Below are positions 29,738-52,832 of a stretch of 64,000 nt of DNA, piece after piece. The notes under the pieces were generated by a model. It ran no database searches. It was not told where the DNA came from and saw only the letters and a list, made by a program, of their open reading frames with translations. Numbering within the stretch: the stretch's first letter is position 1; each line of letters begins with the position of its first letter. The position numbers and the translations under genes were made by a program. Origin of the DNA: Anaerolineaceae bacterium (GTDB taxonomy: Bacteria > Chloroflexota > Anaerolineae > Anaerolineales > Anaerolineaceae); contig JAENYZ010000005.1 of NCBI GenBank assembly GCA_016841525.1, forward strand, positions 147,084-211,083, written 5' to 3'.

Positions 29738-29771
29738 ACAAAATGCCGAATAAATTAATTCGGCATTTTGT
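29738..29771 (-). terminator. Terminator after udp, end of the 21-gene cluster
   Basis: Perfect 14-base stem ACAAAATGCCGAAT/ATTCGGCATTTTGT with a 6-base loop, placed about 90 bases after the udp stop. The T tract on the minus strand is TTTTGTGTT, so termination strength is moderate. It is symmetrical enough to act on either strand. Confidence 0.75.
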
Positions 29772-29857
29772 AATGGACTCCGTTGTTCTTCAATTGCAAT
29801 AAAATTCAATACATTGACACATCTCTACATAAAAATGAGTTTGATGTTTTAGATTGG

Positions 29858-30616
29858 TCAATTCTTTTTATCAGATTGGATTATGATCTTTAATGCTTCA
29901 ACAGCGGTATTCACAAGGCCTTTCATATTCCAATTCCGATCTTCAACCTGTTCACCACTCTCCTGGTTGCCAGTAATTAACATCACACCGCCAGTACGGA
30001 GTTTATATATGCTGCCTAATATAAATAATGCAGCGGCTTCCATCTCTGAGCAAATTGTGCCGCCCATCTTCCAGGCTTTCCAGCGTTCAAGAAGGTGTTT
30101 GTCAACAGGCATTCGCTCTGGTTGATGCTGCCCGTAAAATGAATCCTTTGATTGTGTGATGCCTGTAAAGTAAGTTTGATCCAATTTTTCGGCAGCTTGA
30201 ACTAAAGCATTCGCCACTTGTAAGTCCGGGATGGCTGGAAACTCAATTGGCATATATTGAATCGTCGTTCCCTCATCCCTGATTGCCCCGGTAATGATTG
30301 CCAGATCACCAATACGCATATCTGTGCGAAGTGCCCCCGATGTACCGACGCGAATAAAAGTATCTGCACCCAGCAGCCGCAGTTCTTCAATGCCAATGGA
30401 TGTAGAAGGGCAACCGATTCCCGTTGACATCAAAGAAACTTTTTCACCTAAAACCGTGCCAGTATATGTTGTGTATTCGCGATTTGATGTTACAAATTCG
30501 CAAGTATCAAAAGCTTGTGCAATTATCTCACTCCGACCAGGATCACCAGGCAGTAAAACATATCTACCCACATCGCCCTGTTTCATATTGATATGATGCA
30601 TTTTTTCTTCGTTCAT
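29858..30616 (-). CDS. udp: Uridine phosphorylase (NP-I nucleoside phosphorylase)
   Basis: 252 residues. Phosphate-binding GDPGR at residues 24-28, STGIGCPSTSI, RVGTSGAL and the ribose-binding CSEMEAAAL motif place it in the NP-I family, closest in pattern to uridine phosphorylase (uridine + Pi giving uracil + ribose 1-phosphate). Specificity for uridine over purine nucleosides is inferred, since the base-contacting residues cannot be checked without a structure. The start has AAGGAG with ideal spacing. It is the last gene of the long cluster that begins with a nucleoside-type ABC importer, so it may act on the imported compound. Confidence 0.85.
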   Translation of the reverse strand: MNEEKMHHINMKQGDVGRYVLLPGDPGRSEIIAQAFDTCEFVTSNREYTTYTGTVLGEKVSLMSTGIGCPSTSIGIEELRLLGADTFIRVGTSGALRTDMRIGDLAIITGAIRDEGTTIQYMPIEFPAIPDLQVANALVQAAEKLDQTYFTGITQSKDSFYGQHQPERMPVDKHLLERWKAWKMGGTICSEMEAAALFILGSIYKLRTGGVMLITGNQESGEQVEDRNWNMKGLVNTAVEALKIIIQSDKKN

Positions 30617-30677
30617 TTTGTCTCCTTAAAGAACCTTTGAGAGGAATTCCAAAAATTTTTGTGATCCCATCTTGAAA

Positions 30678-31661
30678 TCACATCCTTACAACTTTATTTC
30701 TCAATACGCCAATTCCTTCAACCTCAAGCTCAATTACATCACCGGGTTTAATCCAGCGGTTAAGCTCAATTCCCGTACCGGTGGGGCATGTGCCAGAAGC
30801 CAGGAAATCACCGGGATACAAAGTCTCGGATTGAGAAATATATGCTATCATTTGAGGGAATGACCATAACATGCCATCTGTGGTACTCTGCGACCATAGT
30901 TCGCCATTAATACGTGCGGTCATCAAATGGCTTTTTCCTGAAAATTCATCCAGGGTAACCATACAAGGTCCGAAAATCTTCGAATTATCGAAATCCTTCC
31001 CTTTTGCGGGACCAAAGGTCATTGCCATCTCTTTTTCTTGCTGGTCACGAGCAGAAATATCATTAAAAATTGTGTATCCGGCAATATAATCATCGGCTTC
31101 TTCTACCGGGATATTTTTCCCCTGTTTTGAGATATAGACACCAAACTCCAACTCAAAATCCAATTTTTCTGTAAAAGAAGGCCAGTGGATATCCTCTTCG
31201 GGACCAATTGTGTTATCCGGATTTGCCTTCCAATAAACCGGTATTTCATAGAATACATCCGGCACTTTTCCACCGCTTTTTTGTAAAGTTACCCGCTTTT
31301 GGTGTTCTTCGAAGGTTGAGAAATCTCGAATCGTGTTCGGCCTTGGTACAGGCGCCAGGAGTTTAATATCTGCCATCTCATAATAAAACCTGGCGTCATC
31401 ATTACTTTGCGATTCCTGTTCACCAATAAGGGTAAGGATGTCCTGTATTGCTTCAATTCCTCTTTTTCCGCTCTTGAAAAAACCGATCATGTCCGATGGA
31501 AAATACAGGGTTGCCAATTTTTGAGCAAAGGAAGGATCTTCATCTGCAAGAATTAATTCCGCATACGCACGTTTTAAATCCAAAATTTTTTGCTGAAAAA
31601 TCAAACCGATGCGCGTGGATGTGGCAAAATTATCTCTTAAAATAAAACTGACTAATTTCAT
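30678..31661 (-). CDS. Fumarylacetoacetate hydrolase (FAH) family protein
   Basis: 327 residues. The FAH fold metal site is readable: the Glu pair in LDFELEFGVY and the Asp of GYTIFNDISARD; later motifs are AKGKDFDNSKIFGPC and GTCPTGTGIE. Family members hydrolyse, hydrate, tautomerise or decarboxylate beta-keto-type acids or 2-oxo acids with a divalent metal. The exact reaction here is unknown. The gene sits 15 bases after the hydantoinase gene, so it may act on a product further down the same route. Confidence 0.85.
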   Translation of the reverse strand: MKLVSFILRDNFATSTRIGLIFQQKILDLKRAYAELILADEDPSFAQKLATLYFPSDMIGFFKSGKRGIEAIQDILTLIGEQESQSNDDARFYYEMADIKLLAPVPRPNTIRDFSTFEEHQKRVTLQKSGGKVPDVFYEIPVYWKANPDNTIGPEEDIHWPSFTEKLDFELEFGVYISKQGKNIPVEEADDYIAGYTIFNDISARDQQEKEMAMTFGPAKGKDFDNSKIFGPCMVTLDEFSGKSHLMTARINGELWSQSTTDGMLWSFPQMIAYISQSETLYPGDFLASGTCPTGTGIELNRWIKPGDVIELEVEGIGVLRNKVVRM

Positions 31662-31676
31662 ATTAAATATTCGCTT

Positions 31677-33050
31677 CTAAGCTAATTCTCTTTTGATGAA
31701 ACGACCCACGCCAGTCCTGCCAACGAACTTGCGATCCTCAACAATCACTTTACCTCGCGAGATCGTCATTTCTGGCCAACCCTGCATGTCAACACCTTCA
31801 TAAATCGAAAAGCCACTGGGTGTTGCCAGATCCTGATGTCGAATTGTTTTGACTGTGTTCGGATTAAACAGCACGAGGTCTGCATCAAAACCTACTTCAA
31901 CCCGCCCCTTCTCCTTCAAGCCAAATTCCTCGGCAGGAGAAGTCGACAGCAAGCTAACCATTTTCTCAGGACTCATATTCCGTTTAACAACACCTTCACT
32001 GTGTAAAAAGGTAAGAAGCATCTCGCTTCCGCCCAATCCAGGCGGCACTGTCCGCCAATCAGCATATTTTTCCTTCACTGCCCGTCCAAATGCATTGTGG
32101 TCGGAAGCCACAATTTCGATCGTGCCATCCATTAATCCTTCCCAAAGAGCCTCAGCATTGCCTTCAGGACGTAATGGCGGTGTCATGGTAAACAGGTAAC
32201 CATCATCGCGCTTAAGAACTTCGTCAGTATAAAATAAATAATGCGGACAGGTTTCTGTTCTGATCTTCACGCCCTTCGATTTTGCTTCCCGTATGACATT
32301 TAATGCTTTTTCTGTTGTCAGGTGGACAATATGCACCCTGGAGCCAGCTTCCTTCGCCAAAACAGCCAACTCATAAACCGGGATTTCTTCAGCAAAATCG
32401 GGACGTGTAGAAGCAAAATAAGTCATCGAATCTTCATCTTTATGTTTTTCTTTCAGATATTCAAGTATGTCATCTTGCTCACAATGGACACAAGCAACGC
32501 CATTATGTTCTTTGAATAAATTAAATACATCCCACAAGAATCCTAAATCAACTGAAAAGCCCCACTTTTTATAAGTAGTGAAAAACTTAAAGGATGGAAT
32601 GCCCATCTCAAAAATTCCGGGAATATCATCCAGGGTTTGTTTCGAAGCATTTGTGATACCGCAGTGAAATCCAAAATCGATACAGCTGCCTTCGGTTGCC
32701 ATCACAATTCGTTCTTCCAAAAAGTCCTTTAACCGTCGCTTTTGCGGACAAATGGCATAATCGAGAAAAGTTGTTACACCTCCCACTGCACAAGCGATCG
32801 GTCCTGTTTCATAATCGTCATCGGAAAGGACGGCATCCTCCCCCTGTCCCTGCCGCAAGGCAAAATGAACATGGGTATCAATAACGCCTGGCAATACCCA
32901 TTTCCCCTTTGCATCAATTTCCTTTTTTGCTGCAATAGGTGTCTGTGTGATTACAGCTATTTTTCCATCTTTTATACCGACATTTGCAAACATCTTATGG
33001 GTTGAATTGATGACCAACCCATTGTTTATGGCAAGATCATATTTAGTCAT
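31677..33050 (-). CDS. Dihydropyrimidinase/hydantoinase family cyclic amidohydrolase
   Basis: 457 residues of the amidohydrolase superfamily. The binuclear metal site is complete: DTHVHF, the lysine to be carboxylated in SFKFFTTYK, CVHCEQD, HIVHLTT and ASDHNAFG. TMTPPLRPEG is the hydantoinase/dihydropyrimidinase signature. These enzymes open cyclic ureides or imides (dihydrouracil, hydantoin, allantoin) to N-carbamoyl acids. Which ring is opened cannot be decided from sequence. The neighbouring DUF1116 and FdrA genes, linked elsewhere to carbamoyl transfer, suggest an N-carbamoyl product used for carbamoyl phosphate formation (inference). Confidence 0.87.
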   Translation of the reverse strand: MTKYDLAINNGLVINSTHKMFANVGIKDGKIAVITQTPIAAKKEIDAKGKWVLPGVIDTHVHFALRQGQGEDAVLSDDDYETGPIACAVGGVTTFLDYAICPQKRRLKDFLEERIVMATEGSCIDFGFHCGITNASKQTLDDIPGIFEMGIPSFKFFTTYKKWGFSVDLGFLWDVFNLFKEHNGVACVHCEQDDILEYLKEKHKDEDSMTYFASTRPDFAEEIPVYELAVLAKEAGSRVHIVHLTTEKALNVIREAKSKGVKIRTETCPHYLFYTDEVLKRDDGYLFTMTPPLRPEGNAEALWEGLMDGTIEIVASDHNAFGRAVKEKYADWRTVPPGLGGSEMLLTFLHSEGVVKRNMSPEKMVSLLSTSPAEEFGLKEKGRVEVGFDADLVLFNPNTVKTIRHQDLATPSGFSIYEGVDMQGWPEMTISRGKVIVEDRKFVGRTGVGRFIKRELA

Positions 33051-33131: not shown

Positions 33132-34211
33132 TTACAAAAAATCAGGTTTAAAATCTGGAATCTTTTTTTCAATCACGTATTTCATAATTTCAATAGCATA
33201 TTGGACATCATTGAGGTCTATGATTTCATTGGGTGTGTGTCCATATCGACGAGGTATCGAAAGAAAGCTTGTTGGCACGCCGCTGCCGCTTGTGTGGATT
33301 GCAGCACCATCCGTAACCCATTTTCCATAGGCAGCAACACATTGTATTGGCAAGCCCAATTCATCGGATGCATCACAGAGCAATTTCGAAACGCTCTCAC
33401 TGGCAACAGTACCAAGGAAAAGATCGTCTCTACCAATCCATTTTTGAAGCACAGGGCCATCGCCTAATCGCAGAGGGACATCAGGCATGCTTTTTAATGG
33501 CGTATCATCCAATGGAACAGTGTCAATCACGATGGCAAAATCGGGATTAATTCGATTCGTAATCATTCGAGCGCCCCGCATCCCTATTTCCTCCTGGACT
33601 GTTGCAACGCCGCATAAAGTTCCGGAGAATTGTTTTCCTTGCAAATATTCAAACAATTTGAGCAATATCAAACAACCTACCCGATTATCAACAGCCTTCC
33701 CCATTACAAGATTTTCCTGGGTTAATTTCGTTAAGGGGCTGACGTAATTGACTGCCATCCCGGGTCCAATATGCCATTCAGCAACCTGGGCAGCGGACTT
33801 CGCCCCAATATCAACAAGGAGTTCCTGAACATCATTTTTCTCTGATCCCTGCCTGCTGCTGGTGTGACCGGGAACACACACAACCGTTCCAATTATACGG
33901 TTATCAACCAGCAGCCTGATGCCAGGGAAAATTTTGCAATCAACAACCCCGACAGTATGGATCCTTAAGAAACCATCCGGTGTTACAGCAGTAACAACAG
34001 CCCCAACCTCATCAGAATGAACTGCAACCATTACCTTTGGGCCCGGCAATCCACCATCCAGTAAGGCTGCCACATTACCAAAGGAATCAACAATGACATC
34101 AGCCGCAAGAGAGGAAAATTGTTCTTTTAGAACCTTAACAACCTCGTGTTCTCTTCCCGAAACTCCTGTCAAAGCTGTTAATTCTTGAAGTTTATTAAAC
34201 AATCCATCCAT
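33132..34211 (-). CDS. M42 family metallo-aminopeptidase-like protein (FrvX/SgcX type)
   Basis: 359 residues. All expected metal and catalytic residues of the M42 family are visible: His in MVAVHSDEVG, Asp in GKAVDNRVG, the Glu pair in TVQEEIGMRG, Asp in IVIDTVP and the final His in YGHTPNEIID. M42 members are dodecameric aminopeptidases, but close homologues (FrvX, SgcX) lie in sugar-catabolic operons, and cleavage of non-peptide amides is possible. The start at 34211 has GGTGG just upstream and does not overlap the previous gene; an in-frame start at 34277 would. No peptidase context is evident here. Confidence 0.85.
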   Translation of the reverse strand: MDGLFNKLQELTALTGVSGREHEVVKVLKEQFSSLAADVIVDSFGNVAALLDGGLPGPKVMVAVHSDEVGAVVTAVTPDGFLRIHTVGVVDCKIFPGIRLLVDNRIIGTVVCVPGHTSSRQGSEKNDVQELLVDIGAKSAAQVAEWHIGPGMAVNYVSPLTKLTQENLVMGKAVDNRVGCLILLKLFEYLQGKQFSGTLCGVATVQEEIGMRGARMITNRINPDFAIVIDTVPLDDTPLKSMPDVPLRLGDGPVLQKWIGRDDLFLGTVASESVSKLLCDASDELGLPIQCVAAYGKWVTDGAAIHTSGSGVPTSFLSIPRRYGHTPNEIIDLNDVQYAIEIMKYVIEKKIPDFKPDFL

Positions 34212-34233
34212 GATTCCACCAATCTTTATATGA

Positions 34234-35655
34234 CTAATCCGCCCAATTCTGATATGCATACTCAATGGCTTTAGCAAAAGCCTCGAACGGCGCCTTCACC
34301 ACACCGGCGCCAACCAATCCATACCCGGGGTCTTTGTGAGCGATTCCTGTGTTAATCACGGGAACAATACCGCTCTCAACGACCAATCGAGCATCAATGC
34401 CCGCAGGTGTCCCATTGAAATCCATTGTGGGAATGGTAAACTGGGGATGCCTTCCCAGTGTAATTTTCGTCATCTCTTTGGTGTATCGGATAGCATCCGC
34501 AGGTGAACCGCCAACAAATCGAACAATGGCAGGCGCACCAGCCATCGCAAATGCTCCCAGACCTGCTGTTTCTGTAATTGCGCTGTCTCCCAAATCAGGA
34601 CCTGCATCTTTCTCTGAAAAACCAGGGAAATATAAACCCTCCGGAATAGCCGCGGTCCCGGTAAACCAGGTACTGCTACCAGAGCCGCTCATCAATAAAC
34701 CGACTTCAACACCGTTACGAGCCATCGCAGTAATCATCGTACTGTAAGGAATATTACTGGCTGATAAAAGGCTGGCTTTACTGGCAGCCATACAAATATT
34801 CAGGAAGAAATGTTCGTGCTGAGATAGAAAATCTAGAATTGAACTGCGTTTTTCATCATCTTTACAAACTTTAAAAATCGCAGGCGTAATTTCCTTATAG
34901 AACAGCGCAGTGGCAGCTATATCTCTATTGTGACATTCATCGCCCATATGCAAAGCTCTTGATATCAAATTTTTAACATTGATGCCACCGTGATCAGCAA
35001 TTGCCAGGTTGAGAACAGGTCCCAATACCTCTTGCATCCAATCAAGGCGATCAATCACATCCGTATCATTTGCGCCAAACCTTAAGGTGCGTCCCCATCC
35101 CTCATTCAAAGATGCAAAACCAGCAGTACCATGCTCTTCATCCTCAACGCGCATCACAGGCATATGGGCGGTCAAAACACCCGCCATAGGGCCAACTGCA
35201 TCTTGTGAATGACAGGGCGCAAATTCAATCTCTCCGCTTCCTGCCAATGCTTCAGCTTCTTCGTGGTTCGTCGCAAGTTTCTCGTAGATCAAACCGCCAA
35301 CAACTGCGCCTTTCATTGCGCCGCACATTCGTTCCCATTCAATCGGCGGTCCCGCATGAAGTACTGTTTTTGGGGTCATGTTTTTAAGGGCTTGATAGGC
35401 TGGCTTTATTTCTTTCAAAATTGTTTTTGAATTAATCATTCTCTTAAAGGCTTCTTGATTAGCATTTTTAATTTTCAATCCTAAGCCTTCATTATCATCA
35501 GCCAGGGTAGATACCATGCATGACAATGATGGATCCCCGCCATAAACAGGTTTCCATTTCTTTTCTACCACCTCATATCCATTCTCCCGTAAATCCTTTG
35601 AGAATTTCTCGAGACCGATATTTAATACTTTAAAATCTGAACGTAGAATATCCAT
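34234..35655 (-). CDS. DUF1116 protein (YlbE/AllG-like, FdrA partner)
   Basis: 473 residues with the DUF1116 signatures LHAGPPIEWERMCGAMKGAV, IEFAPCHSQDAVGPMAGV and the later GGSPADAIRYTKEMT. In E. coli the family member YlbE is encoded with FdrA and YlbF and has been linked to oxamate carbamoyltransferase activity in anaerobic allantoin use; I recall this assignment but cannot verify it here. By analogy this protein and the FdrA at 37083-38654 may transfer a carbamoyl group between a ureido acid and phosphate. The third E. coli component (YlbF, DUF2877) and a carbamate kinase are not in the window. Confidence 0.82.
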   Translation of the reverse strand: MDILRSDFKVLNIGLEKFSKDLRENGYEVVEKKWKPVYGGDPSLSCMVSTLADDNEGLGLKIKNANQEAFKRMINSKTILKEIKPAYQALKNMTPKTVLHAGPPIEWERMCGAMKGAVVGGLIYEKLATNHEEAEALAGSGEIEFAPCHSQDAVGPMAGVLTAHMPVMRVEDEEHGTAGFASLNEGWGRTLRFGANDTDVIDRLDWMQEVLGPVLNLAIADHGGINVKNLISRALHMGDECHNRDIAATALFYKEITPAIFKVCKDDEKRSSILDFLSQHEHFFLNICMAASKASLLSASNIPYSTMITAMARNGVEVGLLMSGSGSSTWFTGTAAIPEGLYFPGFSEKDAGPDLGDSAITETAGLGAFAMAGAPAIVRFVGGSPADAIRYTKEMTKITLGRHPQFTIPTMDFNGTPAGIDARLVVESGIVPVINTGIAHKDPGYGLVGAGVVKAPFEAFAKAIEYAYQNWAD

Positions 35656-35664
35656 TTTTATAAT

Positions 35665-36342
35665 TTACAAATCTTCTGCCGTCATTGTCAGTCCTGCTTG
35701 CATCATATGTCCATCAGAGCCATGGTCTGCCATCGCCTGCAGTAATTTTGCAGCACGCTCAGTATTGAATACACCGCAAACACAGGGTTCGCCCAATTTC
35801 TTCGCAGCCTCGTCAGCTGTAATCCTACCTTTGCGAATCCGTGTGGCGTAATAATCAACCAGGTTCGATGCAACCATTCCATGTCCGCACATTGTTGTCA
35901 CTTGCAGAACTTCTTGCGAAGGAAGCTTATCCATATCTCCCCAAACACCGCCGGAGCAATTAACCGTATGCTGCTTTAATCCTGCAGATTCACCCATTTC
36001 TTTGACCTTATTGAGTAAACCGCTCACAACAACTGAAATACCCAAATCTGCTTCTTTGACCTGTTTCAATAAGGCAGCAACCGTTGCTTCATCTTTATAA
36101 ACAGCATGAACAATGCTCACATCCTGGATGTTATTGTAAATATCTTCTTTGTTAGTTTTTAAAATATTTCCTGTTTTCATATCACCCATATTAATGGGGT
36201 CAAATTCCAAACAAATCTCTAGAAATTTCAGCATGGGGGCGGCAGAACCATCCTCGTTAAATCCCTTTGCCGACATAGCAAAAACAACATAATCATCACT
36301 GAGATTTTCAGTGTTTCCTAATCGATGTAGTGTATGTGTCAT
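35665..36342 (-). CDS. Unrecognised 225-residue Cys-containing protein of the FdrA cluster
   Basis: I do not recognise a named family. The protein is soluble, with a probable alpha/beta N-terminal half (DYVVFAMSAKGFNEDGSA, VSIVHAVYKDEATVAALL, ISVVVSGLLNKVKEM). The C-terminal half holds cysteine-containing motifs that look functional: NCSGGVWGD, TTMCGHGMV and PCVCGVFN. They could bind metal or an iron-sulfur cluster, or form a nucleophilic site. A good ribosome site (AAGGAA) precedes the ATG. It lies between a 4Fe-4S protein and the DUF1116 gene, occupying the place where other FdrA loci carry DUF2877, so it may be a functional replacement (inference). Confidence 0.85.
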   Translation of the reverse strand: MTHTLHRLGNTENLSDDYVVFAMSAKGFNEDGSAAPMLKFLEICLEFDPINMGDMKTGNILKTNKEDIYNNIQDVSIVHAVYKDEATVAALLKQVKEADLGISVVVSGLLNKVKEMGESAGLKQHTVNCSGGVWGDMDKLPSQEVLQVTTMCGHGMVASNLVDYYATRIRKGRITADEAAKKLGEPCVCGVFNTERAAKLLQAMADHGSDGHMMQAGLTMTAEDL

Positions 36343-36370
36343 AATTGGTTCCTTCTTCTTCTAAAATTAA

Positions 36371-37093
36371 TTAAAAAGCGTATTCTGGTCTACCCAAGCC
36401 CATGTTATTCTTGCCATTAGGCGATGGGCTGATGCCTGCTTGACGCATGATCTCAAGCATGGGCGGTTCCTCTTCATCGCCAACGTATGAGATCACATCA
36501 AGGCTGAAAACGGTATCGATCTCATCAGAAACTTTAATGATTTCCTTTAAAACGGCATCTGCTTTCTCAACAGGTAATTCAAATTCAATAATCCCTGACA
36601 GAACACGTTCATTCATCACTTCAGGATTAATCTTGCCAGTCCTTTTATCCGTCATCAAAAAAGTTACTGGATTTTCAGGACAAAATGCGACGCCATGTTT
36701 TGCGATCGCCTGGGCAACTTTTTCAATATCAACAAAACTTGCACCAGTTCCAGGTCGCCCCATTTCGACGGCTATCCCCAAATAACCGGGCTTAAACCTG
36801 CCGGTGATATCATTCGTTTTCATCTCTTCCGTACCGCGACCAGGAATTCGCGTTCGAGGATCTACCAATAATGGATTGCTCAAACCAGCACGAATTGATC
36901 GCGGCCAAACCAACTCATCCTCCATAAACGAGTCCGTTGGGCATACGCCGATCCGATAACAAACACCACATTCAACACATTGCTCATCGTCAATAAAAAC
37001 TATCTTTTCGGATTTTTCGAAAAGGATGGCGTTAACCGGGCAAACGGGGATACATTTTTTGCATGCAATGCATGTGTCTTGATCAATTTTCAT
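36371..37093 (-). CDS. 4Fe-4S dicluster protein with C-terminal domain of unknown function
   Basis: 240 residues. Residues 8-19 (CIACKKCIPVCP) are a standard ferredoxin cluster motif; residues 39-52 (CVECGVCYRIGVCP) form a second with five rather than three residues before the last Cys. About 180 residues follow with no family I recognise, including a possible ACT-like stretch (IIEFELPVEKADAVLKEIIK). It is presumably an electron carrier or redox subunit for a neighbouring enzyme. The start has AAGGAG at good spacing and overlaps the fdrA stop by 11 bases, implying coupled translation with FdrA. Confidence 0.85.
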   Translation of the reverse strand: MKIDQDTCIACKKCIPVCPVNAILFEKSEKIVFIDDEQCVECGVCYRIGVCPTDSFMEDELVWPRSIRAGLSNPLLVDPRTRIPGRGTEEMKTNDITGRFKPGYLGIAVEMGRPGTGASFVDIEKVAQAIAKHGVAFCPENPVTFLMTDKRTGKINPEVMNERVLSGIIEFELPVEKADAVLKEIIKVSDEIDTVFSLDVISYVGDEEEPPMLEIMRQAGISPSPNGKNNMGLGRPEYAF

Positions 37094-38654: not shown

Positions 38655-38659
38655 AATAT

Positions 38660-39739: not shown

Positions 39740-39752
39740 TTCATCTCTTTTC

Positions 39753-41661: not shown

Positions 41662-41662
41662 T

Positions 41663-42607: not shown

Positions 42608-42662
42608 CAGTTCCTGCTTTTTATTCACTTAAGAATGGGTCACACAAAAATCAAATATCCGA

Positions 42663-44820: not shown

Positions 44821-45992
44821 TAGTCTGCACTTTCTTCACTCAAAGGGACAATTTTAGATTCAAATATTTGTCTGAAATTCTCGGTTTTCCGCCAGGGTTT
44901 TGATTCGAATTCGAACGGGGTGATTCCTAAGGCATCGCTGATATGTAAGGCAATCAATTCCAGTGGAATGGGATAAATCAGTTGTGTAAACTCCTCTTTA
45001 ATATTTTCCATGCCGACAATGGGCAAATAAATATCCGCTGCGCGAGCTAATTCATCATCGGATTCTTCGCCAATGACAATCTTTTTGCCATCCATCACAC
45101 CAACAGCCTGGAGCACTTCAAGTGCACGATCTCTTGATTCGCCTTTAGGCGCTAAAACGATGACATGGGTACCGGGTTTCGTCGTGAAGTATTGCGTGTG
45201 TGCCCATTCCTCAATCCCCTGGGGAACAGAGTCAAACCCTGATGCTTCTAACAACTTCATTGATCCAAATTGCGCGGTACCCCAATTAGGCCCACTTCCC
45301 AAAATATGGAAAATCTTGATGCGATTGGGGTTCTCTTCTTCAGTGTATGCTTGAACATATTTCTTAATCAAATCAAAATTTGCTTCAACGGTCTGCTTCA
45401 TAGCCGGCCCCATTTCGGCAATGTAATCGAAGATCTGATCTGCTTCTTCTTGTGTAAGAACACCACGTTCCTTGCCAAGTGCAATTGCAAAGCTGATAAT
45501 CGCTAATTGGGATGCAATGTAAGACTGTGTGCCTGGTGCAACACCGACCACATCCGGTATTTGAACAACAATTTTTTCATTAGCTGTCTTTGCAAGTCTG
45601 CTTTCTGGATCTCTTGTAACACCAATGGAAACTGCTTTCTTTTCTTTTGCTCTTAACGCGCACTCGATCGTCCTTGCCACTCGCCCGGAAGATGAAATTG
45701 AAAGCACAACGGCCTTATCATCAACCTCATTTGGACAAACATAGCGAGAAAATTCAATCGCCTGGTATACCTCAACGTGGATTTTTGCATACTTAACAAA
45801 TAAATCTCGACATGCCAGCCCGGCAAGATAAGAATCACCACAACCCGTAATATAGACTCGATTAATCTTTGATGCGAGATCTGTTTTAGAAAAGATGTCA
45901 TTGACCTGTTCAATAATGTCTGGTCCGCATAATTCGAATACTTTTGACTGGGCTGAGATCTCCTCAGCCATAATTTCCATTGATTTTGCCAT
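44820..45992 (-). CDS. Double-SIS-domain sugar-phosphate protein, copy 3
   Basis: 390 residues with two SIS domains: TGCGDSYLAGL and ISSSGRVARTIE in the first; LGSGPNWGTAQFG and GIEEWAHTQY in the second. It is closest to copy 1, sharing the EEWAH motif and a C-terminal ENFRQIFESK-like tail. GlmS-type isomerase, aminosugar deaminase or FrlB-type deglycase activity are the candidates. It follows PfkB copy 2 by 18 bases and is coupled to the BtpA-like gene. Confidence 0.85.
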   Translation of the reverse strand: MAKSMEIMAEEISAQSKVFELCGPDIIEQVNDIFSKTDLASKINRVYITGCGDSYLAGLACRDLFVKYAKIHVEVYQAIEFSRYVCPNEVDDKAVVLSISSSGRVARTIECALRAKEKKAVSIGVTRDPESRLAKTANEKIVVQIPDVVGVAPGTQSYIASQLAIISFAIALGKERGVLTQEEADQIFDYIAEMGPAMKQTVEANFDLIKKYVQAYTEEENPNRIKIFHILGSGPNWGTAQFGSMKLLEASGFDSVPQGIEEWAHTQYFTTKPGTHVIVLAPKGESRDRALEVLQAVGVMDGKKIVIGEESDDELARAADIYLPIVGMENIKEEFTQLIYPIPLELIALHISDALGITPFEFESKPWRKTENFRQIFESKIVPLSEESAD

Positions 45993-46010: not shown

Positions 46011-46970
46011 TTATAAAATCTTTTGTTTGTTTCGATCTAAACTCGAATACAAAGCATTAAAACGTTGTTTTGCCATTTCATGTTTGGTAGAAAAATTATG
46101 AATCACGCCATAATCCTCTAAATTGAGTGAAGAAGAGACAATGCCAAGGATTGCAGAGACAAAGCTATCCCTGTTGCGCACATAACTTGCTAAAAAACCA
46201 CCACAAAATACATCGCCGCATCCCGTCACATCGACAAGCGCACCTTCAACATATGCTGGTACATGCCATGCTGCCTGTGCATTTTTGTCATAAACCAGAA
46301 CGCCGTGTTCCCCTAATTTCACACCGACGACCTCAGGCCCTTTATTTGAAACCTCTTTAAGATAAGGAATATAATTGCCAATATCACTTTCAGGTGAGAT
46401 GCTAAAAAACCGCAGCAGTTCTTCTTCACTTGGCAAGAAAATATTTATTTTTTCAAGTAATTCTTCCCAAATCTCATAATATTTTGGATACACACCCTGA
46501 AAATGGGGATCCACCAAAATTGTCGCTTCAACTGGTAATGCGCGAACGACTTTTGATTGCCATTCAACCGGGTAAGCGGCAACCAAAAATGCGTCTGCAT
46601 TGAAATAATCGTTGGGAATGTCTTCCGGTAGAACGCCCATAATATCATCATCTGATCCCCACCGCTGTTTGATAAAATACCGATTTCCTTTTCGGTCAAA
46701 AAGGTTCCAAATGTGAATACTTGGTGCATTAAGCTTGTTTACACCTTTGAGGTCCACATTGTTTTCAATTTTTTCAAAAACAGGTTTAAGATCATAATCA
46801 TTACCCTGCCTTGTAACAAAGCCTAAAAGGCCTGTCTCCCAAAAACAGACACCAGCCAAGGCATACAGACCCGAGCCACCCGGCGAATCTAGCCGCGCAG
46901 GCTGATCAAACAAAACCACATCATCCAGGGTAAGCTGTCCTATGACGACAATTTCATAGTTTTCAGTCAT
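46011..46970 (-). CDS. PfkB/ribokinase family carbohydrate kinase, copy 2
   Basis: 319 residues. VIGQLTLDDVVLFD and GGSGLYALAG form the N-terminal substrate region; VDVTGCGDVFCGGF is the anion-hole motif with the catalytic Asp, where the usual TGAGD is TGCGD. It is the first catalytic gene after the transporter genes, consistent with phosphorylation of the imported compound. It pairs with SIS copy 3 as copy 1 pairs with SIS copy 1. Confidence 0.86.
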   Translation of the reverse strand: MTENYEIVVIGQLTLDDVVLFDQPARLDSPGGSGLYALAGVCFWETGLLGFVTRQGNDYDLKPVFEKIENNVDLKGVNKLNAPSIHIWNLFDRKGNRYFIKQRWGSDDDIMGVLPEDIPNDYFNADAFLVAAYPVEWQSKVVRALPVEATILVDPHFQGVYPKYYEIWEELLEKINIFLPSEEELLRFFSISPESDIGNYIPYLKEVSNKGPEVVGVKLGEHGVLVYDKNAQAAWHVPAYVEGALVDVTGCGDVFCGGFLASYVRNRDSFVSAILGIVSSSLNLEDYGVIHNFSTKHEMAKQRFNALYSSLDRNKQKIL

Positions 46971-46991: not shown

Positions 46992-47945
46992 TTAAGACAT
47001 ACCCTTTTGGAAAGGTTTTCCTTCTGCCCTAGGGCCAGTCAAACCCTTTGGCCCAAAAGCCAGCACGATCATTGTGATCAAGTAAGGCATCAATTTGTAA
47101 AATTCACTGGGAATACCAAGGGTATTGAAGAAAGGTAACCCAGAATAAATCGCTGACATTGTCTTTAACGAGCCAAAAAACATTGAAGCAAAGAAAATCT
47201 TCATCGGACTCCACTGCCCAAAAATCATCACAGCCAGCGCCAAGAAGCCATAACCAGAAACTTGGCCGTTAAAGTTTGTACTGTTGGGCAGCACAAAAAC
47301 AAGACCTCCCAAACCACCCAGAGCGCCAGATATCATGACACCAAAATAACGGAACTTACGAACATTAATGCCCACTGAATCAGGTGCTTGGGGATGTTCT
47401 CCACATGCCCTCAGGCGTAATCCAAACCTGGTTCGATACAGAACAAAATTCGCAACTATCAACACGATAAAGCCCAGGTATGTTGTTAGATATACATCTC
47501 GGAACAAAATATCACCAATAAATGGGATTTTAGATAGAAATGGAATTTCTTCAATGATGAAGAAATTTCTAAAAGAAATGATTGAATCACCAAGAATAAT
47601 TCGCGCAGCAAACACGGAGAAAGCAGGAGCAAACATATTCAAGGCTTGGCCTGAAATTATTTGGTCCGCATTGAGGTTTATGGACGCAAATGCATGCAGC
47701 AAGGAAAAAATTAACCCGGTAGCTATCGAAATAATGATCGCAATAATGATCTGTAACTGGGGTGGCATTATTCCTTCAGTAAAACGAATAAACATAAAAC
47801 TGGTGAAGGCGCCCATGATCATGATGCCATCAAGACCAATGTTTACCACACCGCTCCGTGAGGAATACATACTCCCAATGGCAACAATTAATAATGGGAT
47901 TGAAAAATTCAACATTTGACGTAAAAAGAAGATTAATGTCTCCAT
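46992..47945 (-). CDS. BMP-type nucleoside ABC transporter permease, second subunit
   Basis: 317 residues, about eight or nine membrane segments, BPD_transp_2 family (ribose/nucleoside/branched amino acid type). The N-terminal SRSGVVNIGLDGIMIMGAF and the cytoplasmic EHPQAPDSVGINVRKFRY coupling loop are typical of the NupQ/YufQ subunit of BMP-family importers. The ATG is preceded by AGGAGT. It partners the permease at 47957-49144. Confidence 0.9.
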   Translation of the reverse strand: METLIFFLRQMLNFSIPLLIVAIGSMYSSRSGVVNIGLDGIMIMGAFTSFMFIRFTEGIMPPQLQIIIAIIISIATGLIFSLLHAFASINLNADQIISGQALNMFAPAFSVFAARIILGDSIISFRNFFIIEEIPFLSKIPFIGDILFRDVYLTTYLGFIVLIVANFVLYRTRFGLRLRACGEHPQAPDSVGINVRKFRYFGVMISGALGGLGGLVFVLPNSTNFNGQVSGYGFLALAVMIFGQWSPMKIFFASMFFGSLKTMSAIYSGLPFFNTLGIPSEFYKLMPYLITMIVLAFGPKGLTGPRAEGKPFQKGMS

Positions 47946-47956: not shown

Positions 47957-49144
47957 TTAAAGTTTTGTCGATGTATCAGCAATTACGTCTGGATCAGTAA
48001 CGCCAGCCCCAAGCTCCAGTTCTAATTCGGACGCTGCGTCGATCATGCTTCCAGATCCTCGATATTTTCTCCGAGTGAAATACTTGATTAGCATATTCTT
48101 GAAAACCAGAGAAAATGCGCTGAAATAAATGATGACGGCTGTGATAATACCCACCGTTTCGACTGGGAACCCATACCCCTGGCTTAACGAACCGCCTACT
48201 GTAATGTGCGCAATAAAAAAGCTTGAGAAGATGATCCCAAGAGGATGCGAATGCCCTAGAAGGGCAACAGGTATGCTGTAACCCGGTTCATTAATAAAGG
48301 TTTCTGAAATCTTATAAACTTTAGTAATGGATGATTGATAATTGATCCCGCCAGCCAAGCCCGCAATAAAACCAGCAATTATCATAACGAGGAATATATT
48401 CCTCTTTTCATTAATGCCTGCATATTGACTGGCATCTCTGTTCAATCCACAAGATCTCAGACTATAACCGAAGGTTGTCTTATATAAAATGATATACATT
48501 ACTATAGCGACAAAAATGGCAATAAACAGACCTGAGTTTATGGATGAACCGGGGAAAATTTTATCCAAACCTAGCTTTGGCATCAATGCTGTTTTTTCAA
48601 TATAAGCTGAAGCAACAATAGATTTGTCGTAATGCGTTGTATAGACCAAATAATTAACCAAATAGATGGAAATATAATTCATCATGATGGTTGTGATAAT
48701 CTCGCTCACATTGAAGAATGCTTTTAACAAACCCGGGAAAGCAGCCCAGATTGCGCCAGCAACACCGGCGCCAAGCATTGCAACAAGCCAATGAACCGAT
48801 CCTGGCAAATTGGTCACCTTTGCACCAATGATGATCGCAACGTATGCAGCAATGGTGAATTGACCGATCACACCAATATTAAAAAGGCCGTTTTGGAAAG
48901 AAAATCCAACAGAAAGCCCTACTAATATGTAAGTGGTTGTGTAGTAAAGCACCTGGCCAATGCCACGAGCCTGGTCTGTAAGACCACCCTGAAGCATGGT
49001 TAAGAAACCTGGCCATGCACCTTCCGGATTAAAAATGTACATCACTACAAAACCAACAAGCAAACCCATTAAAATAGGTATCAGTGAAGACAAAATACTA
49101 TTGAAAGCGTTGTTGACTAATAATTTGTTTAGTAATTTTTTCAT
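47957..49144 (-). CDS. BMP-type nucleoside ABC transporter permease, first subunit
   Basis: About 395 residues with roughly ten hydrophobic segments. NGLFNIGVIGQFTIAAYVA and LRSCGLNRDASQYAGIN are the membrane-entry and coupling-loop motifs of the NupP/YufP subunit. A C-terminal charged tail of about 40 residues is extra. The start at 49144 lies 1 base after the ATPase stop; GTG codons at 49153 and 49156 are alternatives. Confidence 0.88.
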   Translation of the reverse strand: MKKLLNKLLVNNAFNSILSSLIPILMGLLVGFVVMYIFNPEGAWPGFLTMLQGGLTDQARGIGQVLYYTTTYILVGLSVGFSFQNGLFNIGVIGQFTIAAYVAIIIGAKVTNLPGSVHWLVAMLGAGVAGAIWAAFPGLLKAFFNVSEIITTIMMNYISIYLVNYLVYTTHYDKSIVASAYIEKTALMPKLGLDKIFPGSSINSGLFIAIFVAIVMYIILYKTTFGYSLRSCGLNRDASQYAGINEKRNIFLVMIIAGFIAGLAGGINYQSSITKVYKISETFINEPGYSIPVALLGHSHPLGIIFSSFFIAHITVGGSLSQGYGFPVETVGIITAVIIYFSAFSLVFKNMLIKYFTRRKYRGSGSMIDAASELELELGAGVTDPDVIADTSTKL

Positions 49145-49145
49145 T

Positions 49146-50672
49146 TTATGCACCACGCTTTGAACCTGACATGTACAGACCTAAGTCTCTTTCAGACACT
49201 TCATCGGGCTTTACATTCGCAACGATCTTCCCTTCAAACATGACAAGAATTCTGTCGCTTACATTCATCACTTCATCCAATTCTAACGAGATCAACAATA
49301 TTGCCTTGCCAGAATCCCGTTCCTTGATAAGTTGTTCATGAATGTATTCAATTGCACCAACGTCCAAACCGCGAGTTGGTTGAACAGCAATCAATAGATC
49401 GTGCTTTCGATCCATTTCCCTTGCGAGGATTGCCTTTTGCTGATTTCCACCAGACATACTTCTCACTATTGTGTCTGGTCCTTTGGCAGATCGGATATCG
49501 AACCTATCGATGAGAGCTTCCGCATGTGCTCTGATATTCGAATAATTTAAAAACCCATTTTTACTGTATTGATCCATGAAATATGTTTGTAAAATGAAAT
49601 TATTCGACAGATCAAAATCAAGAATTAAACCATGTTTTTGCCGATCAGCAGGAATATGTGAAACAAGCTCAATATTCCTATCGCGGATTGACCAATCCGT
49701 GATGTCTTTATCATTAATAAAAATTCTTCCAGAGGTTGCTGGCAATAAACCGGTTATTGCCATGACCAATTCTGATTGACCATTGTTTTCAACGCCAGCT
49801 ACTGCAACAATCTCACCTTTATGCACATCTAATGAGACGTGATGAACTTTATTGTATTTGCTGTTGCCCGGTGCTTTGACGACCAAATCATCCACTTTTA
49901 AGCAAACATCACCAATTTCTGGGTCAGACTTTTCAACCTGCAGCATTACTTTTCGACCAACCATCATCTCTGAAAGCTGCTCATCGGTGACATCAGCAAC
50001 ATCCACCGTAGCAATCCGCTGCCCCTTTCGTAAAATTGTGCAGCGATCACCTACTCGTTGTATTTCTTTAAGCTTATGGGAAATAAATATGATGGATTTC
50101 CCTTCAGCAGCAAGATCTTCAATGATCTTCATCAACTCATCAACTTCCTGGGGAGTCAGAACGGCTGTAGGTTCATCAAAAACGAGGATATCACTTTCTC
50201 GGTACAGCATTTTCAAAATTTCTACTCTTTGCTGCATACCTACCTGCATATCATCAATCTTTAGATCTAAATCAACAGATAGGCCATATTGCTGGCTAAG
50301 CGCTTCGACCTCTTTCCGGGCTTTATCCATCTGCAACACGCCCTTATTAGTCGTTTCAACGCCTAAAATAATATTTTCCAAAGCAGTGAAAACTTCTACC
50401 AACTTAAAGTGCTGGTGAACCATGCCAATCCCAAGACGTTCAGCATCCTGAGGGTTGTTAATTTTTTCTTCATTTCCCCGTACGTAGATTTTTCCGCCAT
50501 CTGGCTCATAAAGGCCAAACAACACATTCATCAATGTGGATTTGCCAGCACCATTCTCACCAAGTAATGCATGGATTTCACCCTTTTTCAAATTAAAATT
50601 AATGTTGTCATTCGCAATAATACCCGGGAACAGCTTGGTGATATTTTGCATTTCGAGAATATAATCTTCCAC
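49146..50672 (-). CDS. BMP-type nucleoside ABC transporter ATPase (two nucleotide-binding domains)
   Basis: 508 residues with tandem ATPase domains. The first has Walker A GENGAGKST, the D-loop region FDEPTAVLT and a switch His in FISHKL; its signature motif is the weak MQVGMQQRVEI. The second keeps SGGNQQKAILARE but has a degenerate Walker A (GVENNGQSE), which is usual for RbsA/NupO-type sugar and nucleoside importers. It energises uptake by the two permeases that follow. Confidence 0.93.
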   Translation of the reverse strand: MEDYILEMQNITKLFPGIIANDNINFNLKKGEIHALLGENGAGKSTLMNVLFGLYEPDGGKIYVRGNEEKINNPQDAERLGIGMVHQHFKLVEVFTALENIILGVETTNKGVLQMDKARKEVEALSQQYGLSVDLDLKIDDMQVGMQQRVEILKMLYRESDILVFDEPTAVLTPQEVDELMKIIEDLAAEGKSIIFISHKLKEIQRVGDRCTILRKGQRIATVDVADVTDEQLSEMMVGRKVMLQVEKSDPEIGDVCLKVDDLVVKAPGNSKYNKVHHVSLDVHKGEIVAVAGVENNGQSELVMAITGLLPATSGRIFINDKDITDWSIRDRNIELVSHIPADRQKHGLILDFDLSNNFILQTYFMDQYSKNGFLNYSNIRAHAEALIDRFDIRSAKGPDTIVRSMSGGNQQKAILAREMDRKHDLLIAVQPTRGLDVGAIEYIHEQLIKERDSGKAILLISLELDEVMNVSDRILVMFEGKIVANVKPDEVSERDLGLYMSGSKRGA

Positions 50673-50732: not shown

Positions 50733-50780
50733 GATCTACTTGTCCAATCCTGATCAGTACAAACGAGGGGTTTTTGTACT

Positions 50781-51905
50781 TTATTGAACGTAAGTTAATG
50801 TAATGGCCTGCAAAGGAATCTGGGTTGGATCTTCATAATCCTCATCAGTGGGAATGCTTGATGCAATACCATCAACATCATTAGAAATCCGCTCAAGAAG
50901 TGTGTCATAATCTTCTTTAGTGAAGTTCTCAAACTTGGTTGATTCCCAGGGTAAGCCAACGCCACCTTCAGCAGCACCATAAACAACGATCTTTCCACCT
51001 TCAAAGGTGCCATCCTGCCAGGCTTTCAATGAATTGTAGGTAACATTGGCAAGATCTTTAATGGCTGAAGTAATAATGGTTTCTGATTCATTGACCTGGT
51101 CCGAATCAACACCGATCACAACACCGTCATTTTGTTCAGCTGCAGCAAAGACAGATGCGCCCATTGGGCCTGCTGCAACATGGATGATCTCTGTTCCACT
51201 CTGGAACCATGAAGCTGCGCGAGCCTGGTTCTCAGGGGTGGGTTTGAAATCACCGGAGTAGTTGTACATCATTTCGACATCGGTCAAGCCGAGGTCAACG
51301 GCTGCTGCGTCAGCGCCAGCTACGAAACCATAACCAAAACGCACAACAGCGGGAACAGGCATGCCGCCCATGAAGCCTAATTTACGGTAGCCTTCAACAA
51401 CTGCAGCATAACCTGCAATAAAGGTCGCTTCATGTTCTTTAAATTGGATAGCAAGGATGTTGTCGGTAAGTACCTGGTTTCCATCTTCATCTATCGGAAC
51501 TGTGTCGAAGATGATGAATGTGACATCCGGATGAGAATTCATCATTTGATAGGCAGCAGCTTTAAATTGATCGCTGTTGATGATGATGAATTCAGCACCT
51601 GCTTTGATAGCAGTATCTGCAATGGTAACCTGAGCTTCAACGGTATCCTCTACGGGTTGATAATAATCGTAGGGCAGATCGTAATCAGCAGCAAAATTCT
51701 TAACGCCTTCCCAGCATGCCTGGTTGAAAGCGCGGTCATCCAGCGTGCCCGCTGCAGAAATTAACAATGCGATTCCTGGTTTTTCTTCTTCTACAACTTC
51801 AGGTTCTTCCCCGCCTGTTTCTGGTTCTTCAGCTTGAGGGGCACATCCTGCAATCATGGATAAAACCAAAATTGCAAGAATTCCATATGACAATAGTTTT
51901 TTCAT
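50781..51905 (-). CDS. BMP family ABC transporter substrate-binding lipoprotein
   Basis: 374 residues. The N-terminus is a lipoprotein signal peptide ending in the lipobox IAGC (Cys21), followed by an acidic Pro/Glu linker. The rest is a PnrA/BMP domain with LISAAGTLDDRAFNQACWEG and VIGVDSDQVNES. BMP proteins of this type bind nucleosides such as guanosine, uridine or inosine, but paralogues bind other ribosides. The start at 51905 has TAGGAG at ideal spacing and leads straight into the signal peptide. A further in-frame GTG at 51971 lies inside an unusually perfect AAGGAGGTGA, but would bury the signal peptide behind 22 residues. Confidence 0.92.
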   Translation of the reverse strand: MKKLLSYGILAILVLSMIAGCAPQAEEPETGGEEPEVVEEEKPGIALLISAAGTLDDRAFNQACWEGVKNFAADYDLPYDYYQPVEDTVEAQVTIADTAIKAGAEFIIINSDQFKAAAYQMMNSHPDVTFIIFDTVPIDEDGNQVLTDNILAIQFKEHEATFIAGYAAVVEGYRKLGFMGGMPVPAVVRFGYGFVAGADAAAVDLGLTDVEMMYNYSGDFKPTPENQARAASWFQSGTEIIHVAAGPMGASVFAAAEQNDGVVIGVDSDQVNESETIITSAIKDLANVTYNSLKAWQDGTFEGGKIVVYGAAEGGVGLPWESTKFENFTKEDYDTLLERISNDVDGIASSIPTDEDYEDPTQIPLQAITLTYVQ

Positions 51906-52010
51906 TTTTTCTCCTATATTGATAAAAAATCGATAAACAAACTTGTAAAGCAAATATTCGATGAACTTCACCTCCTTCCAAAGGCGTTACGATAATCATC
52001 CTGCTATCTC

Positions 52011-52784
52011 TTACATGGATCTAACCAATAATATATTCATCATTTTATCGTTGTGATAATTCACACAAAATAACAATGGTTTGGAATAAGAATTACAAAA
52101 ATGCGTTTGCTCCAGACAAATAAGAGGTGTTCCAATATCAATCTTTAATTTTATTGCTAAGTCATTATCTGCTGATACGGCGTGGATGTTCGTAAGCGCA
52201 GAATTGAATTCAAAGTTGGAAGTTAGGAAATAATCATAAATAGACCAGTTATCTAATTTTGCAAATGGCGAAAGGTCATAATCCAGGCCTGGAATGTTTG
52301 CCGGATAATACTCATCAGAATTAATCACAGGAATACCATCAGCGGTGCGTACACGAGAAACATGCATTACTTCCGTTGTTTGGCTAATTTTTAAATTTTC
52401 AGCGACCAATTTAGAGGGGAGTTCAAAGTTGAATCTAAAACTTGTTTGCCCTGGTGATTTTTTCTGACTGGAGATCATGCTTGAGGTGCCAACCATGTTG
52501 GTCAGGTTTGTATTTAACATCACCTCCGACTGCGGTGTGATAAAAGTACCCACACCCCTTTGACGATAAATAAACCCTTGTTCACTGAGAGAATTGAGTG
52601 CTTCTCGTAAGGTATTTCTGCTCACCCCTAGCTGATCAGCCAATGCTGGTTCACTGGGCAGCTTTTCTCCGGGAGAAAAAACATTCTCACGAATAGCGTT
52701 TAATATTTGGTCAATAACCTCATCAGTGATGGATGGGTAATTTATTTTCTGAAAAATTTGGTTACTTTGTTGGTTGTCCAACAT
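52011..52784 (-). CDS. GntR family (HutC/FrlR type) transcriptional regulator with UTRA domain
   Basis: 257 residues. The N-terminal winged helix-turn-helix (residues 17-80; LPSEPALADQLGVSRNTLRE, QRGVGTFI) is followed by a UTRA ligand-binding domain (VMHVSRVRTADGIPVINSDEYYP). UTRA regulators usually sense a sugar phosphate or other small catabolic intermediate and release DNA on binding it. It is the first gene of the 21-gene cluster, with its own near-consensus promoter and a very short leader, so autoregulation and control of the whole cluster are likely. SD AAGGAG precedes the ATG. Confidence 0.92.
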   Translation of the reverse strand: MLDNQQSNQIFQKINYPSITDEVIDQILNAIRENVFSPGEKLPSEPALADQLGVSRNTLREALNSLSEQGFIYRQRGVGTFITPQSEVMLNTNLTNMVGTSSMISSQKKSPGQTSFRFNFELPSKLVAENLKISQTTEVMHVSRVRTADGIPVINSDEYYPANIPGLDYDLSPFAKLDNWSIYDYFLTSNFEFNSALTNIHAVSADNDLAIKLKIDIGTPLICLEQTHFCNSYSKPLLFCVNYHNDKMMNILLVRSM

Positions 52785-52803
52785 CCTACTCCTTTCAAAA
52801 CCT

Positions 52804-52832
52804 AGTATATAATAGCTTTATTATTCTGTCAA
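52804..52832 (-). promoter_or_regulatory. Promoter and possible operator of the gntR-led cluster
   Basis: Minus strand TTGACA (52827-52832), 17-base spacer, TATACT (52804-52809). The predicted start site is only about 13 bases before the gntR ATG. The spacer contains an inverted repeat ATAATA-AAGC-TATTAT, well placed for repression by the GntR protein. Confidence 0.75.

Follow-up and report, generated by a model that had tools for sequence, protein, structure and literature searches.

Do 21 adjacent genes for the import of a nucleoside-like compound, the conversion of a sugar and the breakdown of a ureide serve a single catabolic route, and is their combination more than a chance arrangement? 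The question is raised by an operon of an Anaerolineaceae bacterium that lies within a stretch of 64,000 nucleotides, analyzed here at its full length and termed the window (G000:C3:147084-211083, part of a 3.2-Mb assembly of nine contigs). The operon is a run of 21 open reading frames (ORFs) on the minus strand, from a GntR-type regulator gene beginning at window position 52784 to a uridine phosphorylase gene ending at 29858. A preliminary description had stated that this content matches no known pathway, and we found no published account of the gene combination in the literature searched. Our comparison with other genomes shows that the combination is not a chance run: it consists of known families in a conserved combination together with one unnamed enzyme pair, here called Fer4X and U225. 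As we read them, the genes fall into two linked modules, one of which we call the nucleoside/sugar unit and the other, of allantoin-like type, the ureide unit.

Conservation of the gene combination

The conclusion that the combination is not accidental follows from three observations. Genome G590, which apparently belongs to a different phylum than the source organism, carries 11 of the 21 gene types on one strand of a single locus (L135): PfkB, SIS, BtpA, SDR, MDR, FdrA, the Fe-S protein Fer4X, the 225-residue protein U225, AllG, M42 and hydantoinase, with genes for DeoC, AllH, an ECF-type importer and PucR on that same strand. Subsets of seven to eight genes recur in four further genomes. 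Finally, the AllG subunits of these operons form a single clade: In a tree of 29 rows, the window and five core relatives group together (support 96/86, recovered in 93% of 200 bootstrap trees), separate from AllG of cyanurate/barbiturate-type clusters, of xanthine-dehydrogenase-type clusters and of the organism's own family. These core relatives are L018 from another family of the same phylum, L034 and L126 on one contig of G402 (Bacillota), L057 from Firmicutes UBA5496, L095 from an uncultured Oscillospiraceae and L135, whose genome G590 comes from the phylum of G402. In each of them FdrA, AllG, M42, hydantoinase, Fer4X and U225 occur together with SDR, MDR or both, and ECF-type transporter genes lie alongside; a PucR-like regulator accompanies them in G402 and L135. 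The claim of a combination without known counterpart thus needs amendment: each module has relatives, and the whole is rare, yet not unique, given G590.

The survey of gene neighborhoods that the preliminary description had called for gave a divided answer, since distant genomes keep the genes together whereas those of the organism's own family that we examined do not. An FdrA homologue is present in 70 of the family's 147 genomes, the source genome counted, and those among the matches listed outside the window share 37-47% identity with the window FdrA. Sixteen such neighborhoods, from 16 genomes (two on contigs shorter than 10 kb), contain no window-type PfkB, SIS, BtpA, Fer4X, U225, M42 or hydantoinase; their matches are to FdrA (15), AllG (15), ABC, AllH, PucR, BMP and permease, and to SDR in one. 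For this reason the operon is unlikely to be ancestral in the family, and its acquisition by transfer from elsewhere would be the simplest reading.

The layout would suit a compact transcription unit. Genes are spaced by 108 bp at most and overlap at 6 of the 20 junctions, where the 137-bp SDR/MDR overlap and the 44-bp AllG/M42 overlap depend on choosing the start of the longest ORF. The upstream neighbor lies on the opposite strand (from 53103), and the downstream neighbor TlyA (28883-29677, minus strand) follows 180 bp beyond the operon. On the minus strand at 52832-52804, a sigma-70-like sequence of the form TTGACA-17-TATACT agrees with the consensus at 11 of 12 positions; its 3' edge lies 19 bp ahead of the first gene, and it is the sole site of this quality among those listed by the scan. 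As the number of promoter-like sites (9) does not exceed that in shuffled sequence (6.4 ± 2.9), this consensus match is no more than suggestive of a promoter upstream of the regulator gene. At the other end, a terminator-like hairpin with a 14-bp stem and a 6-base loop occupies 29771-29738 on the minus strand; its folding energy, computed for two windows of 50 nt, is -18.9 kcal/mol in one and -25.1 kcal/mol in the other. A terminator scan of 28000-31000 does not list it, probably because the T run falls within the stem. The GC content of the operon is 42.3%, compared with 45.4 and 45.5% in the flanks, and Rfam yields no match across the window. Layout, near-consensus promoter and closing hairpin are all as first described, with gaps given there as at most about 110 bases, and Pfam and NCBIfam models, which we used for all family assignments, bear out the family content including the regulator; the earlier list omits the family-less gene at 35665-36342, which encodes U225.

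The nucleoside/sugar unit and the ureide unit

All genes named below lie on the minus strand. The first encodes a GntR/UTRA regulator (52011-52784; PF00392 75.3 bits, PF07702 67.1 bits, both above cut-off). It is followed by a putative nucleoside-type importer composed of a Bmp-domain lipoprotein of the BMP/PnrA type with the lipobox IAGC (50781-51971; PF02608, 145.3 bits), a double ATPase (49146-50672; PF00005) and two BPD_transp_2 permeases (47957-49156 and 46992-47945; both PF02653). The top NCBIfam match of the ATPase, the B6 importer model NF047930, reaches 441.5 bits and thus stays below its cut-off of 670. The best plasmid relative of the lipoprotein (43.7%) adjoins a phosphorylase relative and DeoC. 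Next come two PfkB kinases, three SIS proteins and a BtpA/SgcQ-family protein (43960-44820; PF03437 164.2 bits, TIGR00259 177.1 bits above a cut-off of 153.4), for which a search of the PDB returned a single chance-level row (E 0.03). Both kinases (46011-46970, PF00294 66.7 bits, and 41663-42628, 95.2 bits) keep the DxTGxGD motif, as DVTGCGD and DPTGAGD, respectively. The uridine phosphorylase that closes the operon (29858-30616) scores 281.3 bits against TIGR01718, one bit above the cut-off of 280.3.

The SIS proteins carry a signature of their own. SIS1 (44820-45992; PF01380, 84.8 bits) is GlmS-isomerase-like: the stretch that bears its motif EEWAHTQYF aligns with the isomerase region of GlmS, and the protein has a Glu-x15-His pair. 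SIS2 (42663-43919; 43.3 bits) reads EEYGHEQYW and SIS3 (40537-41679; 78.4 bits) EEWAHEQYF. The pattern K..E-x12-E-x2-H inside EE(W/Y)xH, followed by (Q/E)Y(F/W), is present in all three and in six of seven distinct relatives (eight loci inspected, two of which represent the same gene); as exceptions, Streptosporangium has EEWEHVEVL and two Hungatella proteins retain only EEWxH. Among 19 genomes that bear U225, SIS3 finds six matches at E 1e-25, four with the GlmS motif and EEWxH in two Hungatella only; in the phylum of G946 it finds none in 395 genomes, which is uninformative. SIS2 matches 2 of 400 genomes of the organism's own phylum at E 1e-30, the source genome counted.

Relatives of this unit recur in varying company. 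In L135, PfkB, SIS, BtpA and DeoC, the last with 273.7 bits against TIGR00126 (cut-off 117.3), form a row that separates the MDR/ECF genes from SDR/FdrA. On a contig of G402 other than that of its ureide unit, locus L132 has the order GntR-PfkB-SIS-BtpA-BMP-ABC-permease-permease-hydantoinase, and here the hydantoinase exceeds the dihydropyrimidinase cut-off (498.4 versus 393.25 bits). Plasmid pMHb of Mesorhizobium huakuii is annotated in the same order, UTRA-PfkB-SIS-BtpA-BMP-ABC-perm-perm, with hydA and an SDR close by on the opposite strand; it has eight gene families in common with our operon, which differs in gene order and adds two SIS proteins, one PfkB kinase, the phosphorylase and the whole ureide unit. 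A BtpA search of 398 genomes gave eight matches in five genomes; four of these matches are adjoined by both SIS and PfkB. Of 39 plasmid records matched by BtpA, six regions were opened; one contains the triad and in one an annotated PfkB lies beside BtpA. Locus L207 of Hungatella brings PfkB, SIS and BtpA together with DeoC, two phosphorylases and ECF-type genes, and locus L208 has an ADP-ribosylglycohydrolase, a phosphorylase, SIS and a nucleoside hydrolase. As a separate observation, some 5 kb separate BtpA and SIS on a plasmid of Streptosporangium NBC_01495 (L159, 6986-8960) from folE, queE and a gene for 6-carboxytetrahydropterin synthase, where the pair may have an additional role in a gene cluster for the biosynthesis of a 7-deazaguanine nucleoside.

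The second unit is preceded by two dehydrogenases, an SDR (39753-40517; PF13561, 237.9 bits) and a zinc-type MDR (38660-39889; PF08240/PF00107), whose coordinates are those of the longest ORF and whose true start probably lies further downstream, near 39730. The unit comprises the FdrA/AllF subunit (37083-38654; NF004760, 488.8 bits, cut-off 433), the Fe-S pair treated below, the AllG subunit (34234-35655; PF06545, 288.3 bits, cut-off 27), an M42-family metallohydrolase (33132-34277, longest ORF with an unsure start; PF05343, 221.8 bits) and a hydantoinase/dihydropyrimidinase-like cyclic amidohydrolase (31677-33050; PF01979, 80.1 bits), followed in the operon by an FAH-family hydrolase or lyase (30678-31661; PF01557, 191.4 bits); the M42 protein and the hydantoinase both show metal-site-like motifs. 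Within 34234-38654 the FdrA/AllG boundary is shifted: FdrA ends at 503, and AllG residues 4-50 correspond to positions 507-553 of the 555-position model NF004760. The hydantoinase remains under the cut-offs of both dihydropyrimidinase (TIGR02033, 345.2 versus 393.25 bits) and allantoinase AllB (TIGR03178, 299.3 versus 357.85 bits). The M20-type allantoate amidohydrolase model AllC (NF006771) yields 19.4 bits against a cut-off of 399, and the operon has the M42 protein instead. No dihydroorotate or dihydropyrimidine dehydrogenase domain is among the Pfam matches of the 21 genes; the rest of the genome was not searched for it.

AllF-AllG-AllH of Escherichia coli is the oxamic transcarbamylase, which interconverts oxalurate plus phosphate and oxamate plus carbamoyl phosphate; it was assayed from carbamoyl phosphate and oxamate, and its partner is the carbamate kinase AllK (PMC11326118). 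Like the anaerobic allantoin pathway outlined there (PMC11326118), our operon has FdrA/AllF, AllG, a ring opener of the hydantoinase superfamily, dehydrogenases and a metallo-amidohydrolase, and its relative L095 reads FdrA-AllG-M42-Hyd-Fer4X-U225-AllH (PF11392), followed by an AA_kinase-family gene that we read as carbamate kinase. Unlike that pathway, the operon has no model match to AllB or AllC, no AllD or AllE was seen in the cluster, M42 replaces M20, AllH and carbamate kinase reside at other loci, and the unit is joined to a nucleoside/sugar unit and to Fer4X-U225. AllH is also present in L126 and L135. The source genome encodes one AllH at C5:761806 and a carbamate kinase above cut-off at C9:382800.

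A second FdrA-AllG cluster of this genome (G000:C5:741577-774900; L030, L138) has AllH about 8 kb away and, by ORF reading, neighbors of the types xanthine dehydrogenase subunit, NCS2 permease and cyclase. Three clusters of the cyanurate/barbiturate type (L146-L148, from G639, G416 and G615) likewise combine FdrA and AllG with AllH-like and PucR-like genes and, in L147 and L148, a carbamate-kinase-like gene. They differ from the operon in their AtzD-family ring-opening amidohydrolase, as tested in L147, where it exceeds both AtzD-type cut-offs (591.4 and 567.2 bits), and in their separate AllG clade; perhaps they represent an anaerobic cyanurate or barbiturate route that ends in carbamoyl phosphate.

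The Fer4X-U225 pair

Between FdrA and AllG lie the genes for Fer4X (36371-37093), a 2[4Fe-4S] ferredoxin domain (Pfam Fer4) fused to an unnamed C-terminal domain, and for U225 (35665-36342), an unnamed protein of 225 residues. U225 matches nothing in Pfam or NCBIfam at E 0.001; sequence searches of the PDB with the single protein and with a 66-sequence profile gave nothing below E 0.4, NCBIfam on 66 members gave scattered weak matches only (best E 0.0018), and the plasmid collection contained no match. It is nevertheless a genuine protein family: a peptide-pattern scan of a genome collection covering 84,980 species confirmed 223 stretches from one pattern, and 79 loci were obtained from the best of these. 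A Fer4X homologue immediately precedes U225 on the same strand in 71 of the 79; in six loci of Acidobacteria it lies about 5-6 kb away on the opposite strand, and no homologue turned up in L075 or L084. Within the organism's own phylum, U225 is rare and occurs in 6 of 301 sampled genomes, the source genome counted.

Conservation within the family points to iron-sulfur chemistry. Over 66 sequences of U225, Cys152, Cys187 and Cys189 as well as His3, His6, His125 and His154 are invariant, and the three cysteines suggest an Fe-S cluster with an open site. In Fer4X, eight cysteines are invariant over 52 sequences, the pattern expected for two [4Fe-4S] clusters. Foldseek found nothing at E <= 0.001 for the predicted models of U225 (pLDDT 90.7) and Fer4X (pLDDT 89.8); VIA returned ferredoxin-like rows for U225 (best Z 5.1), and for Fer4X it recognized the ferredoxin domain and gave weak ACT-like rows for the C-terminal half (Z about 7, e.g. 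5it4 and 2nyi). At 36723-36812, within the Fer4X gene, ARAGORN reports a tRNA whose anticodon has four bases; Rfam does not show it, and it is probably a false call.

Neighbors, whose families were named by scanning one representative each, hint at conceivable reactions. MDR adjoins U225 in L018, L034, L036 and L135, and various other loci contribute transporters of the TctABC, DctM or 2-hydroxycarboxylate type, subunits of pyruvate:ferredoxin-type oxidoreductases, a thiamine diphosphate enzyme, CoA-transferase III, aldehyde:ferredoxin oxidoreductase, a lactate-racemase-family protein, an FAD-linked oxidase with cysteine-rich Fe-S proteins, and a prismane-like protein with a pyridine-nucleotide flavoprotein. 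We infer that the pair may perform a ferredoxin-linked redox step on small 2-hydroxy or 2-oxo acids or on ring compounds. A conceivable, speculative relative of the pair is 6-hydroxynicotinate reductase. In L040, L049, L058, L059 and similar loci of Desulfosporosinus and Peptococcaceae, the order ferredoxin-like protein, prismane-like protein of 515 residues, Fer4X, U225, pyridine-nucleotide flavoprotein recurs. A single lineage for the U225 proteins of the core clusters was rejected (p-AU 0.007) in a tree of 79 rows, obtained from a 91-row set by removing 12 long or near-identical rows; the 91-row tree likewise requires five changes. Because core U225 does not form one clade, the Fe-S pair appears to have moved more freely than AllG.

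One route or two units

Gene content and order, the conserved motifs and the association of the modules in distant genomes are directly observed; from them we infer what the following scheme adds, namely each reaction and its place in the sequence, the identity of the substrate and an anaerobic setting. The operon would serve the anaerobic use of a nucleoside-like compound, that is, ribose or deoxyribose on a pyrimidine- or hydantoin-type ring, a reading to which we assign about an even chance; our first guess at the substrate, which we consider rather unlikely to be exactly right, would be uridine, dihydrouridine or some similar modified nucleoside with a pyrimidine base. The compound would be imported by the BMP-type ABC importer and split by the uridine-phosphorylase-family enzyme into base and sugar-1-phosphate. 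PfkB kinase, SIS isomerase and BtpA would then convert the sugar into glycolytic phosphates, while Fer4X-U225 and the two dehydrogenases would oxidize or reduce the base or the acid formed from it by ring opening. Ring opening by the hydantoinase would give an N-carbamoyl compound, whose carbamoyl group FdrA-AllG, with AllH from the other locus, would transfer to phosphate; carbamate kinase would finally turn carbamoyl phosphate into ATP, CO2 and NH3, and the M42 and FAH enzymes would hydrolyze the remainder. The riboside and ureide part of the import-to-carbon-and-nitrogen route that had been proposed finds partial support in the conserved neighborhoods: the nucleoside-type importer, the phosphorylase with its narrow margin, the occurrence of DeoC or a phosphorylase next to BtpA, SIS or PfkB in a number of relatives, and that of a hydantoinase with FdrA/AllG/AllH in others.

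Several observations weigh against this scheme. No enzyme of the operon has a tested close relative that would fix the substrate; hydantoinase, M42, MDR, SIS and PfkB all fail to reach the curated cut-off of any model listed, and the margin by which the phosphorylase passes is a single bit. As a source of carbamoyl groups, an N-carbamoyl amino acid is inferior to an acylurea such as oxalurate. None of the 21 genes has AllH (PF11392) as a Pfam match, and carbamate kinase is not encoded within the operon. Elsewhere, the genes around Fer4X-U225 are those of organic acids and not of nucleobases; the U225 proteins of the core clusters do not form one clade, and the nearest row to the window U225 is core L135 in the 91-row tree but non-core L037 in the 79-row tree. 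Four of the five core relatives (L018, L057, L095 and G402) lack PfkB, SIS and BtpA on the stretch examined around the ureide unit, and only one genome besides the window was found to have both units on one stretch. The absence of the sugar genes from those stretches takes weight from a single route and adds it to the view that two independent catabolic units, one for nucleoside sugars and one for ureides, share a transcript because their substrates co-occur, with no metabolite exchanged between them. We regard this as the less probable explanation: in Mesorhizobium L152 and L136 the sugar unit is not accompanied by the ureide unit, the opposite holds for L018, L057 and L095, and G402 carries its ureide unit (L034/L126) and its sugar unit (L132) on separate contigs. 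On the other hand, the one-strand placement of PfkB-SIS-BtpA-DeoC between MDR and SDR-FdrA in L135 speaks against such independence, and a hydantoinase stands beside the sugar unit in L132 and, on the opposite strand, near L152, although none was seen in L134 or L136.

Two further explanations concern the sugar arm. The original proposal had included a glycated ureide. In this reading, PfkB would phosphorylate an Amadori-type ureide or amine and SIS would deglycate it, in the manner of the fructosamine (Frl/Fra) systems; a GntR/UTRA regulator, a PfkB kinase and a GlmS-like SIS protein with a Glu-x15-His pair are the gene set of such operons, and three SIS proteins with two kinases would fit several sugars. 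Yet the window has the SIS signature EE(W/Y)xHxQY(F/W), a nucleoside-type importer and BtpA, for which we know of no role in Frl systems. Moreover, the scores are far under the cut-offs, with 37.6 and 29.4 bits for the kinases (fructoselysine kinase, 247) and at best 22.7 bits for SIS (fructoselysine deglycase, 430), and several relatives accompany phosphorylases, DeoC or a nucleoside hydrolase, so that a glycated substrate is not favored and appears improbable. More improbable still is a route for pseudouridine or other C-nucleosides in which PfkB would act as the nucleoside kinase and BtpA would take the place of PsuG. PsuK is a PfkB-family kinase, but a PsuG-family gene already exists elsewhere in the genome (C1:362429, 403.4 bits); Pfam gives no match to PsuG (PF04227) in any of the 21 genes. 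In its logic, the sugar arm also resembles the haloarchaeal non-carboxylating pentose bisphosphate pathway for nucleosides, which proceeds through a phosphorylase, a PfkB-family ribose-1-phosphate kinase and an isomerase (PMC9700705); our operon likewise contains genes for a uridine-phosphorylase-family enzyme, PfkB kinases and a putative isomerase. The haloarchaeal isomerase is a ribose-1,5-bisphosphate (R15P) isomerase homologue (PMC9700705), whereas the operon has a SIS protein and BtpA. Since both PfkB kinases score far too low against the ribose-1-phosphate kinase model NF053626 (28.9 and 22.4 bits, cut-off 330), we do not count the sugar arm as a member of that pathway.

In the surroundings of the operon, a UbiA-type prenyltransferase, a mevalonate kinase and an isopentenyl phosphate kinase, each above an NCBIfam cut-off, follow one another at 53103-55750 and look like an archaeal-type mevalonate branch. 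The minus strand also contains two giant ORFs, 3458-7867 and 14237-19663 (1469 and 1808 residues).

Returning to the single nucleoside-to-ATP route, we tentatively propose, at somewhat less than even probability, that Fer4X-U225 constitutes a new class of two-subunit iron-sulfur oxidoreductase, in which U225 would hold a substrate-binding [4Fe-4S] cluster on its three invariant cysteines and Fer4X would donate electrons from its two ferredoxin clusters. It would carry out a redox step on 2-hydroxy or 2-oxo acids or N-heterocycles in many anaerobes and be part, in this organism, of a complete anaerobic route from nucleoside to ATP whose sugar arm, made up of PfkB, the EEWxH-type SIS proteins and BtpA, would be an undescribed bacterial pathway for nucleoside sugars. 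The operon gives BtpA, U225/Fer4X, the EEWxH SIS group and the core-type FdrA-AllG a shared, testable pathway context. In Desulfosporosinus, Dehalococcoidia, Hungatella and similar groups the pair adjoins organic-acid transporters and ferredoxin-type enzymes; should it prove to be a new redox enzyme, a gap in the fermentation of ureides and organic acids by these organisms would be closed.

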